The notes below the pieces were generated by a model that had not been told where the DNA came from, ran no database searches, and saw nothing but the letters and a program-made list of their open reading frames with translations. The position numbers were made by a program, and so were the translations under genes. 43,943 nucleotides of DNA from Candidatus Gottesmanbacteria bacterium GW2011_GWC1_43_10 (lineage in GTDB: Bacteria; Patescibacteriota; Microgenomatia; UBA10105), in contig LCEX01000015.1 in assembly GCA_000995415.1 (NCBI GenBank), forward strand, positions 1-43,943, written 5' to 3'. Shown here piece after piece: positions 6,937 to 20,319 of this stretch (position 1 is its first letter; every line of letters starts with the position of its first letter).

Positions 6937-8025
6937 TCAGCTGGTTTCTATCTTTGTCTTTTTTGCAAACACGGGATTATAAAGATAAGGGAGATAAAGT
7001 TGGACCAATACTTTTGTGGCCGCCCGTGCGTCTATATTGGGATTATGTAAATTTCTGATATTTGCGCCAACTTCCTGACGCAACAATTGCTTTTGTAAAG
7101 CCAACTTGATGATTGAATACCGGCGTAAGGATTTATGCGGCACAATTCCGCACAATGCATCAATCACTTTTCGTAGTCCAAAATAGAAACCTGGCTCATC
7201 CTCCTCTGTATAAATAATCTCCAACTTACCTGCTTTTGTGTTTTCTATATAAGGCAAAACCACTTCATCACAACACTGTTTTAGATACAAAACGCCGTTT
7301 ACAAAATCTGCATCCCCCAAATATTTTCCGGTTCCATCCTCCATCACTGCCCACGCGGCCAGCAGTAATTCCCTATATTCTCCCATCCGCTCGCCTCTTT
7401 CCGCTCCAGTAAATAATTTTCTCCAGATATGTGGGATATCTTGAACCACAGGACTTGCCCCTCGTTCACTCCGACTATCCATAGCAGAGATCAAGGAACG
7501 AGCTAAAAGAGAAATCTTCTGTTTCCCGACAAGATCCACTAACCAATCTAGTTCTGTTGATTGAAAACGCCTAGCAATAATATCCATTTGTTCTCCCGAA
7601 TCTTGTCTTTCTCGGGCTTTAATCAAAGCTTCGGTAGTTGCCCTATCAGCAATCGCTAGTTTTGCTATTTGATAAGCGGTATCTCCAATTTCATCTACCA
7701 AAGCAAAACTTGAATCTGTTTCTTCTGTCCACATTATGTCAGCAATTCCAGGCAAACCGTGCATATACTCTTTCGGAAAAAGCGCATCTGGAAAAATTCC
7801 AGCCTGCAATAACTCTTTCCGAACTTGGGCAATCCGAAGTGAAGACTCGAGAAAACTACCCGAATCAACAACATACAACTTACTTCTCGGTATAAACGGT
7901 TCTCCCCATGGAGATCCTCGTCTTTCAAGTCTTGCTCTTCTGACAGCCAAAATCTCCCTTGCGAATGGATTATATCGACTTAACCTCATTAGTTTTTCTG
8001 GCATATTCCGGATATTATATATCAA
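6937..8025 (-). CDS. Hypothetical protein, 362 aa
   Basis: Long ORF with coherent composition; no family recognised. Confidence 0.65.
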   Translation of the reverse strand: MIYNIRNMPEKLMRLSRYNPFAREILAVRRARLERRGSPWGEPFIPRSKLYVVDSGSFLESSLRIAQVRKELLQAGIFPDALFPKEYMHGLPGIADIMWTEETDSSFALVDEIGDTAYQIAKLAIADRATTEALIKARERQDSGEQMDIIARRFQSTELDWLVDLVGKQKISLLARSLISAMDSRSERGASPVVQDIPHIWRKLFTGAERGERMGEYRELLLAAWAVMEDGTGKYLGDADFVNGVLYLKQCCDEVVLPYIENTKAGKLEIIYTEEDEPGFYFGLRKVIDALCGIVPHKSLRRYSIIKLALQKQLLRQEVGANIRNLHNPNIDARAATKVLVQLYLPYLYNPVFAKKTKIETS

Positions 8026-8076
8026 ATCGATGGTTTGGGCCTATATGACAATCCAAACACCAAATCATTTCCCTGC

Positions 8077-8106
8077 TTGACAAGTCTGGGGAATCTTCTT
8101 TATAAT
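8077..8106 (+). promoter_or_regulatory. Near-consensus sigma70-type promoter
   Basis: TTGACA (8077-8082) - 18 nt - TATAAT (8101-8106). Confidence 0.75.
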
Positions 8107-8130
8107 TTACGCATATCTATATATAACCTT

Positions 8131-8208
8131 ATGTCACGCGCTACACATCAATATATTATTTGGTCTAACCTCCGATTTACTGCGGAGGTTCGTAGCGTGC
8201 TCGGTTAA
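8131..8208 (+). CDS. Putative leader peptide MSRATHQYIIWSNLRFTAEVRSVLG
   Basis: ATG at 8131, TAA at 8206-8208, between the promoter and an intrinsic terminator. Confidence 0.5.
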   Translation: MSRATHQYIIWSNLRFTAEVRSVLG

Positions 8209-8264
8209 GCCGAAGCAAAAAGTATCAAGCTCGAACCTCCTGAAGAAAACCAGGAGGTTTTTTT
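8167..8264 (+). promoter_or_regulatory. Attenuator: AACCTCC/GGAGGTT arms repeated twice, terminator abutting the next ATG
   Basis: Arms at 8167, 8184, 8234 and 8253; second hairpin followed by T7 (8258-8264); AGGAGG also acts as SD of the ORF at 8265. Confidence 0.7.
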
Positions 8265-8855
8265 ATGTATCACGAAAAAGCAAAAGACATAGTTAGAATA
8301 ATGGAAGCGGCTAGTGCATTAGGTATTCCGTGTACAGCTTCATTGGGTATTGAGGGTAGATTTATCGTACCTAAAGTGCCATTTATTGCTTTTGGTTCAA
8401 GATTTTTCACTACACCTGACGACCTGCTAAGAGAAATTAATCCTTCTGCCATGGGTAAACTGACTGCGGACTGGCAAAGATTGGTTCAAGGTATTACATA
8501 CTTAGCAAATCCATTTACCGGATTAAGACATTTAGATGGAGGTGCGCCGGATGCTGCGGTTAATGCTTTTTCTGGGGGAATAGCCATTGCTGACGGATTA
8601 CCAGGTGCTAAGGTTATTCTCCCTCGATCAGTAGGCATTAACCCTGCAGAATTCGCAGGAAAAGACATCATAAGTGAAGGAAACTTAACATTCAGATATA
8701 ATTCCTGGTCGCCACCTACAGCAGAAGAGTTAATTCCAGTTGAAAATAGAGGCAAAGACGGCAAAATAGCTTTAGGAGTAAATTTTACCCTCACTACAAA
8801 CACTGGCACACGTGATTACACGTTTCCTATGAGAACAGAATTAAGAATGCACTAA
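8265..8855 (+). CDS. Hypothetical protein, 196 aa
   Basis: ORF with SD GGAGG 7 nt upstream; no family recognised. Confidence 0.65.
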   Translation: MYHEKAKDIVRIMEAASALGIPCTASLGIEGRFIVPKVPFIAFGSRFFTTPDDLLREINPSAMGKLTADWQRLVQGITYLANPFTGLRHLDGGAPDAAVNAFSGGIAIADGLPGAKVILPRSVGINPAEFAGKDIISEGNLTFRYNSWSPPTAEELIPVENRGKDGKIALGVNFTLTTNTGTRDYTFPMRTELRMH

Positions 8856-8867
8856 GTAAACTCTACT

Positions 8868-9218
8868 ATGCGATGTGAAAAACTTGACTATGGAGCCTTT
8901 GCACTTTTTGGACTCGAAAATGTCCTCAATCGTCTTGTTCCAAAAGGCCAACCTTTGGCAATTTGCTGTCATAAAGGCATGAGAAGGTCCCAAGCAGCAG
9001 TTCGTTTACTGATGAATATGAGGTGTATCGCGAATGATCCACATTGTTTTCCGTCAATAAATTATGCAGATATTACCAGTTACAATTTCCAAGTAAATGC
9101 GGAAGGTATCAGTATTCCCCAAAAATCATTCTTTCCCTTCCGCCACCTGCTAGTCTTTCATGACGACAGCCATCAAGAACAGGTGCAAATTAAAAATCAA
9201 ATCTATACTAAACGTTGA
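8868..9218 (+). CDS. Small protein with Cys-phosphatase-like CX5R(S) signature
   Basis: ICCHKGMRRSQAAVRLL fits C-x5-R-S of PTP/DSP P-loops; 12 nt after the previous stop. Confidence 0.5.
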   Translation: MRCEKLDYGAFALFGLENVLNRLVPKGQPLAICCHKGMRRSQAAVRLLMNMRCIANDPHCFPSINYADITSYNFQVNAEGISIPQKSFFPFRHLLVFHDDSHQEQVQIKNQIYTKR

Positions 9219-9404: not shown

Positions 9405-9833
9405 CTAATTTTTTTCAAGCTGCGAAATAGGCAGCGGAGGTGGTGAGAGTTGACTGAGACCCACGTCACCCGTGACAAAACGTTCGCTTCCACCCACTAA
9501 AGCTGTCGCGATCTGGATACTGTCAGGAGTTCTCAAATGTTGATATTTTCGCCGCAGTTTAGCAGCTTCTTGCATCACTTCCCAATTTACCGGCACCAGG
9601 ATTAAATGTGGAGTTTTTTGGAAAAAGTTCTCAAATGCAGCCAAATGCGCGGAGCCTTCAAGTTTCGGAGCTGAAAGTACTTCCAGCGGAGTAATCATCG
9701 ATATAATAGCCTCATCTTCGCCTTTTTCAACCCGCTCAAACAATGTATTTACTTGACTTAAATAACGCTCATCAGCTTCAAAAAGATAGATAAAAAGCAT
9801 GGAATCAAGAGTGATTTTCATGTTTTGTCCCAA
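9405..9833 (-). CDS. PIN-domain toxin (VapC-like)
   Basis: LDSMLFIYLFEADERY, PLEVLSAP, LRTPDSIQIATAL, FVTGDVGL. Confidence 0.85.
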   Translation of the reverse strand: MGQNMKITLDSMLFIYLFEADERYLSQVNTLFERVEKGEDEAIISMITPLEVLSAPKLEGSAHLAAFENFFQKTPHLILVPVNWEVMQEAAKLRRKYQHLRTPDSIQIATALVGGSERFVTGDVGLSQLSPPPLPISQLEKN

Positions 9834-10072
9834 TTCCCACGCTCTTTTTCAATATAGTCTTCCCCAATCCCCCAAATACCTTTGCCTCGTCCTGAAGCGT
9901 ATTTGACCCAACTTTCCGGCTGCGGCTCAAGGATGACACTCGGACTACCCCTTGCTTGTGACACAGACAGAGTCACCTTACTTCCCGATTTGAGTCCCAA
10001 TATTTTCCGTACTTTCACCGGAATCACTACTTGACCTTGAGAAGACACAGTTAAAATGACGTTCATATACAT
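9818..10072 (-). CDS. AbrB/SpoVT-type antitoxin (VapB-like)
   Basis: VSSQGQVVIPVKVRKILGLKSGSKVTL swapped-hairpin motif; overlaps the PIN gene. Confidence 0.85.
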   Translation of the reverse strand: MYMNVILTVSSQGQVVIPVKVRKILGLKSGSKVTLSVSQARGSPSVILEPQPESWVKYASGRGKGIWGIGEDYIEKERGNWDKT

Positions 10073-15335: not shown

Positions 15336-16086
15336 CGTATTATAGGATATTTATCCTAGCAAAGTTTCTGTTCTTTGCATTCTTCTATTTCTAGAAGTAC
15401 TGACTATATCTTCTTCCTTCACCATGAAGGAGTTGGCGTATGATAGCATCCTAAATTATAGGTCTAGCTATCTCATCCTGAAAAATCAGGAATCAGTCGA
15501 TACGGGGACAGAAGCATTTTGTTGAAAAAATTTTCTTAATGTGTTTGTATCATTAACACGTTTCTTTGAATAGTTAAGCTCTGCAAACTTATCTACTTCT
15601 TTTGCGATCCGAAGAAGAAAACCTGATGTTCTCGTCGTTCCTTCTAATCGCGAAATAATTCGCAAAGCTAATTTTGCTTGTTTTCTTTTAAGAATAAGGT
15701 ATGGTTCTACTTCCTCTAAGGCTTTCTTTACATTTCCTAATCCTACTATCGTGTATTCACACATTCCATCATTTCTGTCGCGGATGTAACCGCTGCGTAG
15801 TTTATGTATCAACCATCTAAGAATTTTTTTCTGTGATTTCTTTTGATAAAATACTAAACTTGCGCGTATTTGAAATCCAAATACATAGTCTTTTCTTCTT
15901 ATTAATTGAAGAAAAATAGACCCATCTCCATCAAGAAAACCAGCAATATATGCTCTTGTTTTTTCAACCACAATACTTCGTCTTCCCACGGTATTACCCT
16001 CTTCCGTTCAGTCAAGAAAGGAGGGTTCCACCGTTATTAGCCAAATTTAACTTCAATGTTACCACTGAAGGTCGCAATAAACAATT
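15336..16086 (-). other. Group I intron I in 23S (between ~E. coli 2596 and 2597, near the I-CreI site)
   Basis: Exon GAACGTCGT / AAGACAGTTCGG split; P7-type GAAGATATAGTC near the 3' end; LAGLIDADG ORF inside. Boundaries approximate. Confidence 0.75.
15486..15989 (-). CDS. LAGLIDADG homing endonuclease (single motif)
   Basis: [20 protein letters not shown]... Confidence 0.9.
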
Positions 16087-16166: not shown

Positions 16167-17031
16167 GGATGCAACTTATCTCATGTTTCCATGAGGGTTA
16201 GACTATACCATCATCCCGATTGAATCGGGAGTTTAGCGTGTTATCAAGCAGTTTTCTAAAAAATAGAAAACTAACAAGATCTTTCATTAATCAACTGACT
16301 AATGAAAAGTCGTTACGGGGTCAGAGGAGTTTATAATTTAAATCTGGGAGAACATATGGCTTAATTAAACCATTAAAAGTATTCGCAGAAGCTGAAGGTA
16401 TAAACATTCTTAAATACTCACGTTGATGATGAACCTTCGTAAGTATCATAAAACGTTTAAACAATACTTCTTGTAATACTTTGTGTTCTTCCTGGGTATA
16501 CGATGAGGTGCAAAGATAAAATCCCTTGGAATCTTTCCTTCGAAAACCGTCATCCATATACCAAATCGCAAGTGACAAAGGGGTAATAAGTGCTTCAAGA
16601 TTACGAGGAACTATTTTTATCCTTCCTCTATAAAATAACGCTCGAAACTCATCAAATAGCTGAAGACTTTTGGTTGAGATATGCCATCTAGAATATACTT
16701 TTCCGCTTCTTTTATCCGTCTCGTTAATTGCACGAGGTTTCAAAGAGAAAGGAATCAGTTCTTTTGCTAACCAAAAAACATACTTTTTATGTTTGTTGTA
16801 ATGATCTACGCGCAAACGAGTATGTTTCCCGTTTTTCTCCAAATGACCATCTCCCAATAAAGTTCCAATTATTATTTCCTTTTGTTTACTTGTTAAAACT
16901 CCTCGACTTCCCACGGTATTACCCATACACAGCTATTATAGCAAAGAAGTGCGTATTAAGGGCTCCACCGTTATGAGCTAAATTTACCTCACCTATTACT
17001 AGATAAGGGGCCCACTCTGCACATTGCAGAG
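16167..17031 (-). other. Group I intron II in 23S (~E. coli 2512-2519)
   Basis: Exon GATGTCGGCTC / ATCCTGGGGG split; P7-type GGTATAGTCTAACCC; LAGLIDADG ORF inside. Boundaries approximate. Confidence 0.75.
16321..16926 (-). CDS. LAGLIDADG homing endonuclease (two motifs)
   Basis: IIIGTLLGDGHLEK and LAIWYMDDGFRR. Confidence 0.9.
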   Translation of the reverse strand: MGNTVGSRGVLTSKQKEIIIGTLLGDGHLEKNGKHTRLRVDHYNKHKKYVFWLAKELIPFSLKPRAINETDKRSGKVYSRWHISTKSLQLFDEFRALFYRGRIKIVPRNLEALITPLSLAIWYMDDGFRRKDSKGFYLCTSSYTQEEHKVLQEVLFKRFMILTKVHHQREYLRMFIPSASANTFNGLIKPYVLPDLNYKLL

Positions 17032-17085
17032 AGCCGACATCGAGGTGCCAAACCGCATCGTCGCTGTGGACGCTCGGATGCGATC

Positions 17086-17118
<33 letters not shown>

Positions 17119-17563
17119 AAGCCCGCCGCGCAACCACTGCGCATGCGGGGATCACTAAGACCGTCTTTCGACCCTGCTCGACATGTACGTCTCGCAGTCA
17201 AGCTGGCTTGTGCCTTTGTACGACCCGCGCGATTTCCATCCGCGCTTAGCCAACCTTTGTACGACTCCGTTACAATTTTGGAGTCAACCTCCCCAGTTAA
17301 ACTGCCCACCAGACAGTGTTCCGCAGCCGGATTTTTATGCGGCTATTGCGGTTAGAGTCAACGTTTCCAAAGAGAGGTGTTCCATCGTTGGTCCGACTTG
17401 CGTCGAACCTCCCTCCTACCCTCGACAGTTAAAAACGCATCGTCAGTGTCAAGTTGCAGTAAAGCTCCACGGGGTCTTTTTGTCCATGTGTGTGTAGGCC
17501 GCATCTTCACAGCCAATTCAATTTCGCCGGGTAATGGTTCAAGACAGTTGTTAAGTCGTTCTA

Positions 17564-17598
<35 letters not shown>

Positions 17599-17619
17599 CT
17601 TCGCTACCATAGAACAGTT

Positions 17620-17969
17620 CACATTGTTATAAAGACGATTGGATACGTCTCTCATAATCGCTTATGAGGTCGGACTATATCATCTCTTTTTGTCATCCTT
17701 GCGCATGCGAGGATCTTTTTTTGAATTAGATTCCCGCTTTCGCGGGAATGACATAAGAGTATGGCGTATAGTCTCTGAGGACTTCTCGATAAAATCGAGG
17801 TTGCCTGCTGATTATCCCCACTGAAACATTTTTACTGAATAAATTTTAAATTTTGCATTGTCATTTTGATTTTTGACTTTTGCATTTTGAATTTATCCAG
17901 TAGTTTCAGATACATGGGACGTTCCAGCAAATAGCCATATTTTACAACTACAACTCCTTTCAAAGGATC
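17620..17969 (-). other. Group I intron III in 23S at the I-CeuI-type site (~E. coli 1923-1931), no ORF
   Basis: Exon GTAACTAT / ACTGTTCTATGGTAGCG split; core AATCAGCAGGC..GTCCTCAGAGACTATACGCC and ATGATATAGTCC. Confidence 0.8.
17691..17753. repeat. TGTCAT...ATGACA-bounded hairpin element inside intron III
   Basis: tgtcatcc..gattcccgctttcgcgggaatgaca. Confidence 0.6.
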
Positions 17970-18510
17970 ATAGTTACTGCTGCCATTCACTCGGGCTTGC
18001 GTAAAACCCTTGATATAATCTTAGACTCCACGCTTAACCTACGAGCATTGGGCAGGTGTCACCCCCTATACTTTGCCTTTCGGCTTTGCAGAGAGCTGTG
18101 TTTTAGTTAAACAGTCGCTTAACATCGTTAACTGCGCCCTCGAATAATCGAGGGAAGGCATCTTGCATAGCTTACGCCTAGTTTTTGTTGCCGAGTTCCT
18201 TGAACCACTTTCTCCCGATTGCCTTGGTATACTCTACCAGTCCACCAGTGTCGGTTTGCGGTACGGATTTACATTCACTCACCACGAATTTTTTCTTGAA
18301 AGAAAAATGGATTTCTACTCTCCCTTGATCTCTCGCGGAATCGCATTTGCTGCTCAGTTAAACACTCCGACGGATTTCCCAATCAGAACTGCTTCACAGC
18401 TTAGACCCCAACATTAGTATGAGGCCAGACTCATCTCTCTTTGTTAACCCTTAGTGTTTTGATCGTGAACATAAAGTTGCCGATTATCAACGGCATATAC
18501 ATCGAGCTAC

Positions 18511-18526
18511 TCCGCCAGTTGGCGGA
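18511..18526. repeat. PPxGG-type 16-mer TCCGCCAGTTGGCGGA inside 23S
   Basis: Directly read. Confidence 0.85.
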
Positions 18527-18716
18527 CTCGCCTTAGATCCGACTTACCCGAAGTCGACGAACGTTGCTTCGGAAACCTTGGACATGCGGCATGCAGGATT
18601 CACACCTGCAAACGCTACTCATACCGGCATTCTCACTTCCCATCGCTCCACCTAACCTTACGGTCTGGGCTTCACTGCTATGGGAACGCTCCCCTACCAA
18701 TCTCATCCGCAGGGCG

Positions 18717-18838
18717 AGAATGACAAATGACTAAATCCAAATGACAAATCAATACTTAAATTTCAAAATTCAAAATTATAGTTTTGAACTTTGGATTTGA
18801 TTTGACATTTGATATTTGAGCTTTGACATTCTTGTCCT
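18717..18838. repeat. IVS-like heptamer palindrome in 23S (helix 45 region)
   Basis: gaatgac aaatgac taaatcc aaatgac aaatcaa ... ttgacat ttgatat ttgagct ttgacat. Confidence 0.75.
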
Positions 18839-18931
18839 ACGGACAAGAGTCTTCATCTTCGGCAGATTGTTTGAGCCTCGATCATTTTCGGCGCCCAAAA
18901 CTTCGGCCAGTGAGCTGTTACGCTTTCTTTA

Positions 18932-18962
<31 letters not shown>

Positions 18963-19419
18963 GTGTTTTAAGTTTTGGACTTCCTTAACCACTTAACAAT
19001 CATTTAGAGGCCTTAGATGGAAATCTGGACTGTTTTCCTCTCGAGACACGCGCTTAGCCGTATATCTCTGACATTTTGGGCTTCTTTCCAGTATTCGGAG
19101 TTTGATTGAAGCCGGTTGCTTGCGCAACCAACCCCATCCAGTGCTCTACCCCTGGAAGTTAATACCCAAAAGCTATACCTAAATATATTTCGGGGAGAAC
19201 CAGCTATCTCTGGGTTCGATAGGCATATTACCCCTAACCACAAGTCATCTCACAGATTTGTAACTCTCTAATGGACGTTACACGTCCCGCAGAGCGGGAC
19301 ACGGGCAATTAACCCTCGCTTTCACTGCGCTTTCGCTATTAAAATAGCTTAAGCTAACGCAACGTCAATTAACTCACCGGTTCATTCTTCAATAGGCACA
19401 TCGTCAGGCACAGCCTTCC

Positions 19420-19550
19420 GAATTCAAAATGTAAAATGTAAAAGTCAAAATTGTATAAGGAAAACTTTTAATAGTCGCGTAGCGACTCCTTTTTTCATTT
19501 TGATTTTTGATTTTTGATTTTTAAATTCGAAGGGCTGCGCCCTTCGATTG
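19420..19550. repeat. IVS-like heptamer palindrome in 23S (helix 25 region)
   Basis: aattcaa aatgtaa aatgtaa aagtcaa ... cattttg atttttg atttttg; central AGTCGC-GTA-GCGACT hairpin. Confidence 0.75.
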
Positions 19551-19850
19551 TTTGTTAGCCAACAATTTCAGGTACTATTTCATTCCCCTTCCGGGGTGCT
19601 TTTCACCTTTCCCTCACGGTACTCGTTCACTATCGGTCTTGTTTTGTATTTAGTCTTAGAGAGTGGCCTCCCTAGCTTCCCACGGGCTTTTGCGTATCCC
19701 ATGGTACTTAGGAACAAACTAGAGGTAGAAAAAGTTTTGCGTACGCGACTTTCACGCTCTGTGGTCTGCTATTCCGAGCAGTTCTGCTACCTTTTCTACT
19801 CCCATATCGTCTGCCCTACAACCCCACGACTTGCGCCGTGGTTTAGACTT

Positions 19851-19882
<32 letters not shown>

Positions 19883-19965
19883 TCAAATGATTTATTTTCC
19901 TCGGGTTACTTAGATGTTTCAGTTCACCCACTTACCTACTTGTCGCTATAATGCTCCGCACGAGA

Positions 19966-20080
19966 AGTTAGAAGTTATTAGTTCAAAGTTCATAGTTTAC
20001 AAGGAATTATTTTATAAATATCCTTATGCACTTCGAGCTTCGATCTTTAAACTTCGAACCCCTTGTGCGAAGCACTTTTA
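19966..20080. repeat. Heptamer array insertion near the 23S 5' end
   Basis: aagttag aagttat tagttca aagttca tagttta ... cttcgag cttcgat ctttaaa cttcgaa. Confidence 0.65.
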
Positions 20081-20319
20081 CAACAAGTTTCCCGATAAAA
20101 TCGGGAGGGTTTCCCCATTCGGAAACCGCCGGATCACAGGAGTATGGCTCCTCCCCGACGAGTATCGCCGCCATATGCGTCCTTCTTCGGCAAAACAAGC
20201 CTAGGCATCCATTGTTGGCCTTATGAGTAGTATTTTATATCAATCCCGATTCTCTCGGGATCACATTATAAGATGGAAAAATTACACACTAAAATACTAT
20301 TCTATTGTCAAGGAGCAAA

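Follow-up and report, generated by a model that had tools for sequence, protein, structure and literature searches.

The window analysed here is a 43,943-nt stretch of contig LCEX01000015.1 from Candidatus Gottesmanbacteria bacterium GW2011_GWC1_43_10. On its forward strand, a promoter and a short leader ORF are followed by an intrinsic terminator and two orphan reading frames, and four arms allow the leader RNA to pair in alternative ways (Table 1). The promoter, the 25-codon ORF and the arms starting at 8167, 8184, 8234 and 8253 were all found as the original prediction had described them. Perfect TTGACA-(16-18)-TATAAT promoters occur at just 6 sites in 2.69 Mb of strand of the same genome, and transcription would be expected to start at about 8113. 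Given this start, the leader ATG has a 5' UTR of ~18 nt; inspection of the sequence revealed no Shine-Dalgarno (SD) motif ahead of it. A comparable leader ORF arises in 6.4% of shuffles, and the ORF taken alone is therefore weak evidence. We infer all three of its translation, real stalling on it and the signal sensed.

Table 1. Coordinates of the leader element, its downstream genes and leaders of similar build at other loci.
Feature	Position or locus	Strand	Sequence	Remarks
Sigma-70-type promoter	8077..8106	+	TTGACA-18-TATAAT	12/12 consensus match
Leader peptide ORF	8131..8208	+	MSRATHQYIIWSNLRFTAEVRSVLG	25 codons; TAA 8206-8208; spans arms 1 and 2
Anti-antiterminator fold (1:2)	8137..8199	+		-24.3 kcal/mol; z -5.35; 0/200 shuffles
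1:2 inner hairpin	8167-8174 with 8183-8190	+	arm 1 AACCTCCG; arm 2 CGGAGGTT	
1:2 outer stem	8137-8144 with 8192-8199	+		8 bp; extends inner hairpin
Antiterminator fold (2:3)	8184..8240	+		-25.2 kcal/mol; z -5.4; 0/200 shuffles
2:3 main stem	8184-8192 with 8232-8240	+	arm 2 GGAGGTTCG; arm 3 CGAACCTCC	9 bp
Intrinsic terminator (3:4)	8233..8264	+	arm 3 AACCTCCTG; arm 4 CAGGAGGTT	arm 3 8234-8242 with arm 4 8251-8259; U-tract to 8264
SD of downstream gene	8252..8257	+	AGGAGG	inside arm 4; 7 nt before ATG 8265
Controlled gene 1	8265..8855	+		196-aa orphan protein; codon score within real-gene range
Possible controlled gene 2	8868..9218	+	CHKGMRRS (CX5R) motif	116-aa orphan ORF
gatC leader, same genome	L107; leader ATG 11308; gatC 11172-10870	-	MYIAFWQPNQQQNSAFAEGQAG, then stop	Gln-rich (...QPNQQQNS...)
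thrS leader	L061		MFAFPAIFTTTTTG	Thr run TTTTT; pattern 2
pheA leader	L063		MQKPVGRINWFFFTFA (...NWFFFTFA)	FFFTF; pattern 2
trpS leader	L059		MKDFVQKKIFVWCDVFHMEVCD	one Trp; pattern 2
pheS leader	L023, L024 (two genomes)		MTSFIYTSFCFRI and close relative	F..F.F; pattern 1

The genes between 8265 and 9218 had been described as lacking known relatives, with one carrying a CX5R phosphatase-like loop. The lack of relatives and the motif both held. The 196-aa protein matched nothing in Pfam, NCBIfam, PADLOC or the PDB and gave only a chance-level match in PHROGs, and the 116-aa ORF had no match in the family libraries or the PDB. Convincing homologues of the two proteins were absent from phages, viral contigs, GTDB scans and 138 relatives; across 380 genomes of the phylum, the five matches obtained (~15-16 bits, E 0.002-0.008) were at chance level. 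Single-sequence AlphaFold models were uninformative, with mean pLDDT of 35 and 37. The codon score of the 116-aa ORF falls under the 5% point of real genes, a weak coding signal that makes its coding status uncertain. We would not assign a phosphatase to an ORF that has the CX5R motif but no relatives and a low codon score.

The terminator sits between the leader ORF and the first gene. The 3:4 hairpin alone has an energy of -15.2 kcal/mol and, together with its U-tract, passes the terminator scan. The SD of the next gene lies within arm 4, as had been noted. The run of seven T reported to follow the stem is present (8258-8264), but its first two residues belong to arm 4, and the free U-tract is 5 nt long with the ATG at 8265 directly next. 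Among the stretches scanned, this locus is the only case in which terminator, SD and ATG overlap. An SD wholly within arm 4 and a stem trailed by 5 unpaired U residues could also fit an ermC-type control of translation only, in which 3:4 hides the SD, the U-tract terminates poorly and 2:3 frees the SD. We give this reading very little credence. The hairpin and its U-tract meet the terminator scan, and the terminators at related loci of the phylum described below, for example trpS (L059) and thrS (L061), lie 35-40 nt from the start codon, so that termination is the part these loci share.

Folding with alternative structures recovered both competing folds, with z about -5.4 each, and their nearly equal energies confirm that 2:3 is as good an alternative as 1:2. 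For the whole leader (8112-8270), the folding energy is -50.1 kcal/mol (z -5.8). The arms do share the 7-mers originally reported, but the 2:3 pairing is longer than these: GGAGGUUCG (8184-8192) pairs with CGAACCUCC (8232-8240) over 9 bp and gains 3 bp over a 1-nt bulge (AGC 8194-8196 with GCU 8229-8231), with a further hairpin (8198-8217) nested inside. Pairings 1:2, 2:3 and 3:4 are mutually exclusive, as in a leader-peptide transcription attenuator, and formation of 1:2 leaves the 3:4 terminator free to form. When the upstream sequence was shuffled 3000 times, arm 3 found a partner as strong as in 2:3 in 3 cases; with 20000 random upstream genome contexts, it did so in 29. Furthermore, the element ties for the top pairing score when it is compared with the terminator-like hairpins of ~1.35 Mb of the genome (153 in all).

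The perfect promoter and terminator and the 150-nt structured product between them are also what a constitutive small RNA gene would have, with the next gene reusing the terminator GGAGG as its SD and being expressed by read-through. Such a gene would not account for a 2:3 alternative of 9+3 bp in balance with 1:2, and the only promoter-like sites of at least 9/12 close upstream of 8265 are within the leader itself. We regard the small RNA as quite improbable.

The effect of ribosome position was computed by folding the nascent transcript to 8243 while keeping the bases under the ribosome unpaired (footprint -15/+13 about the A-site codon). With a ribosome at codons 8-14 and arm 4 not yet transcribed, 2:3 formed with a probability of ~1.0. 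With the ribosome at the stop codon or absent, the probability of 2:3 was 0.00-0.02 and that of the terminator 0.98-0.99. The model thus predicts the opposite effects of a stalled and a completed ribosome that had been proposed, with arm 2 left free by a ribosome stalled on the ORF and masked by one that reaches its end. The outcome of the stall was unchanged at 15-50 C, with other transcription starts and with other polymerase positions. When the footprint was small (-10/+10), 2:3 stood at 0.61 and not 0 with the ribosome at the stop; the off-state there needs an upstream footprint of at least ~13-15 nt and is footprint-dependent.

None of 800 dinucleotide shuffles yielded an ORF that combined a stop below 0.15 with 8 or more stall codons above 0.95; in the real leader, 13 codons exceed that value. 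On a looser mask score, 8/153 real and 12/306 shuffled terminators exceeded the cut-off. The stall-mask score was dropped as a sole discriminator and was used only with pairing strength, because this looser score fails to separate real from shuffled leaders. Fold strength therefore carries much of the weight.

From the promoter, ORF, arms and terminator-SD overlap seen in the sequence, and from the computed folds and ribosome dependence, we consider the element probably to be a ribosome-mediated attenuator of the leader-peptide kind, acting on transcription and gating translation as well. Polymerase would start near 8113 and a ribosome would enter the 25-codon leader. A ribosome running freely to the stop at 8206 would cover arm 2, and if none were loaded, arm 1 would hold arm 2; with arm 2 unavailable, 3:4 would pair and transcription would terminate at the U-tract. 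Any read-through RNA in this off-state would keep the SD of the gene at 8265 locked within arm 4. A stall at about codons 8-14 (Y I I W S N L) would instead cover arm 1 and let 2:3 form, which would block the terminator, free arm 4 and its SD, and allow the orphan gene to be transcribed and translated. The alternative folds and a terminator that carries the SD are consistent with the suggestion that both transcription and translation are gated.

A DNA search of 380 genomes of the phylum with the leader returned short terminator-like fragments only and no homologous leader. No relative of the leader or of its genes was present in the searched data, and the attenuator reading therefore draws no support from covariation or codon conservation. 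In Rfam 15, no family reached its gathering threshold across 7950-8350. The best sub-threshold alignment was to RF01859 Phe_leader (17.3 bits, where the gathering score is 55; E 2.4), a score that rules out membership. A T-box was likewise rejected, as no T-box family of Rfam matches in the window.

The arrangement of the arms was searched for in other genomes of the phylum. The order arm 3, arm 4, U-tract and ATG (pattern 1) was found at 23 places across 380 genomes, and real ORFs follow at roughly half of these. The order arm 2, arm 3, arm 4 and U-tract (pattern 2) was found at 16 loci in 362 genomes, and the reversed pattern at 0. The bare terminator occurred 37 times in 59 genomes; from this count and the base composition, we estimate that ~1 of the 16 pattern-2 loci would arise by chance. 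Nearly all pattern-2 loci have a short ORF that reaches or enters arm 2. Where the downstream gene could be recognised, leaders with cognate codons stand before thrS, pheA, trpS and pheS. The gene just upstream of the two pheS leaders looks like rplT. In E. coli, pheM likewise sits behind rplT.

In the mask calculation, the thrS (T), pheA (F) and pheS (F) leaders, together with a gatC leader (Q) from the same genome as the window, switch at their cognate codons, and the trpS leader switches more weakly. Cognate codons before cognate genes provide independent support for the prediction that leaders of such build are read by ribosomes and act by ribosome-mediated attenuation. None of the thrS, pheA, trpS and pheS leaders scanned reaches an Rfam gathering score. 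Some other loci have no codon run and stand ahead of greA, rpsB or orphan genes.

At five of these loci (L062, L064, L067, L070 and L071), the leaders end in Gly-Gly-x-x-x-stop, with both Gly encoded by the GGAGGT arm and the stop always 18 nt past the start of this arm; their targets are greA or orphans, and they contain no codon run. Several of these leaders have a consensus promoter and an ATG ~7 nt after the -10 box and are leaderless. At another locus (L056), a leader with an Arg cluster (MKEMFSNNTIKNVNLNIRRRRNRLRRRCL, then stop) precedes a 192-aa gene whose first 90 residues had no NCBIfam match.

We tentatively raise the possibility, still a doubtful one, that the phylum has its own, widespread style of leader-peptide attenuation. 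It would use SD/anti-SD arms (GGAGGT/ACCTCC/GGAGGT-U), gate transcription and translation together, and often employ leaderless leader ORFs. Its targets would include, besides amino-acid genes, greA, rpsB and orphan genes whose leaders have no codon run. The window element would then respond to the overall state of translation or to one specific nascent-chain arrest, and not to a single amino acid.

The gatC leader in the same genome has arms ACCAGC, GGCTGGT, ACCAGCC and GGCTGGTTTTT, in the same order as the window element. The computed probability of its antiterminator rose from 0.00 with no ribosome to 0.9 with one on the Gln codons, and was 0.1 for a ribosome that had reached the stop. The other relatives inspected have no such leader ahead of gatC, and its conservation failed as lineage-level support. 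Its absence there suggests that such leaders turn over quickly, so that the lack of the window leader elsewhere is not strong counter-evidence. The genome's own trpS, valS and other homologues inspected had no such leader.

Terminator hairpins lying immediately, or almost immediately, ahead of start codons were also observed in this genome at L041 (minus strand, 15324 and 1997) and L045 (plus strand, 17107). The genes concerned look like carA, purF and purA; the hairpin arms contain no SD, and these may be nucleotide-linked attenuators. Other observations were a 23S rRNA gene (16918-20229, minus strand) interrupted by a group I intron (17651-18014), nearby ORFs at 15486-15989 and 16321-16926 that by eye resemble LAGLIDADG homing endonucleases, and a toxin-antitoxin-like pair (9405-10072, minus strand) of a MazE/AbrB-type antitoxin and a PIN-domain toxin-like ORF. 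The intron in the 23S rRNA gene, along with the small genome size and the gene content, points to Patescibacteria/CPR.

The same-arm loci bear on whether the window element senses a ribosome at all. A bistable attenuator might respond to another cue, such as a small molecule (as an orphan riboswitch), a protein or a tRNA, the ORF being incidental. A ligand switch could make use of the outer stem (8137-8199) and of two folds as stable as these, and the ORF has neither SD nor codon run and is matched in shuffles at the rate given above. Against this, no Rfam family matches, loci in the phylum with the same arms have cognate codons, and the leader stop sits where a terminating ribosome masks arm 2. 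We judge such a cue unlikely.

For a ribosome-mediated attenuator, the next question is what the stalled ribosome would report. The stall site YIIWSNL (codons 8-14) contains one Trp and no single-residue run, unlike the thrS, pheA, pheS and gatC leaders with their runs or clusters, and the target is an orphan. In leaders whose control codons are clear, these precede the predicted loss of response by 0-3 codons. In the window leader, the response is lost between L14 and R15, which makes W11, S12, N13 or L14 the candidates; of these, arm 1 dictates N13 and L14. By position, Trp at codon 11 is the best single guess, though a weak one. The trpS leader likewise has a lone, similarly placed Trp, but a single Trp among 25 residues carries no significance. 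General translation stress and nascent-chain arrest are alternatives as the signal.

The element resembles the attenuators of the trp, his, thr and phe operons and of E. coli pheST in its promoter, a short ORF over arms 1 and 2, the 1:2/2:3/3:4 alternatives, the intrinsic terminator and the computed dependence on ribosome position. It differs from them in having no codon run, a leader with no SD, an orphan target, and a terminator arm that is itself the SD and ends at the ATG. The layout is also similar to that of RF01859 Phe_leader. With ermC-type translational attenuators, described as sensing a general slowdown (PMC2965389), it shares a target SD that is freed when the leader stalls, whereas here the hairpin is additionally an intrinsic terminator. 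A related proposal is that of the bifunctional attenuators of Naville and Gautheret (2010), in which a terminator hairpin containing the RBS exerts joint control; termination combined with RBS sequestration was put forward there in general terms and was undemonstrated as of 2010 (PMC2965389). In contrast to that general proposal, the window provides a concrete candidate with a leader peptide.

In 2010, leader-peptide attenuation was stated to be known only from Proteobacteria and Actinobacteria, to which a Firmicutes case was then added (PMC2965389), and the open-licence literature searched contains no description of such attenuators in Patescibacteria/CPR. Leader-peptide attenuation is itself a known kind of control, and a phylum-wide class is more interesting than a single locus. 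The leaders with cognate codons before thrS, trpS, pheA and pheS would mean that this way of sensing charged tRNA persists in reduced, host-dependent bacteria. To these, the window element contributes a candidate for an orphan gene switched by translation, and its terminator, doubling as an SD, would represent the joint control listed as undemonstrated in PMC2965389.
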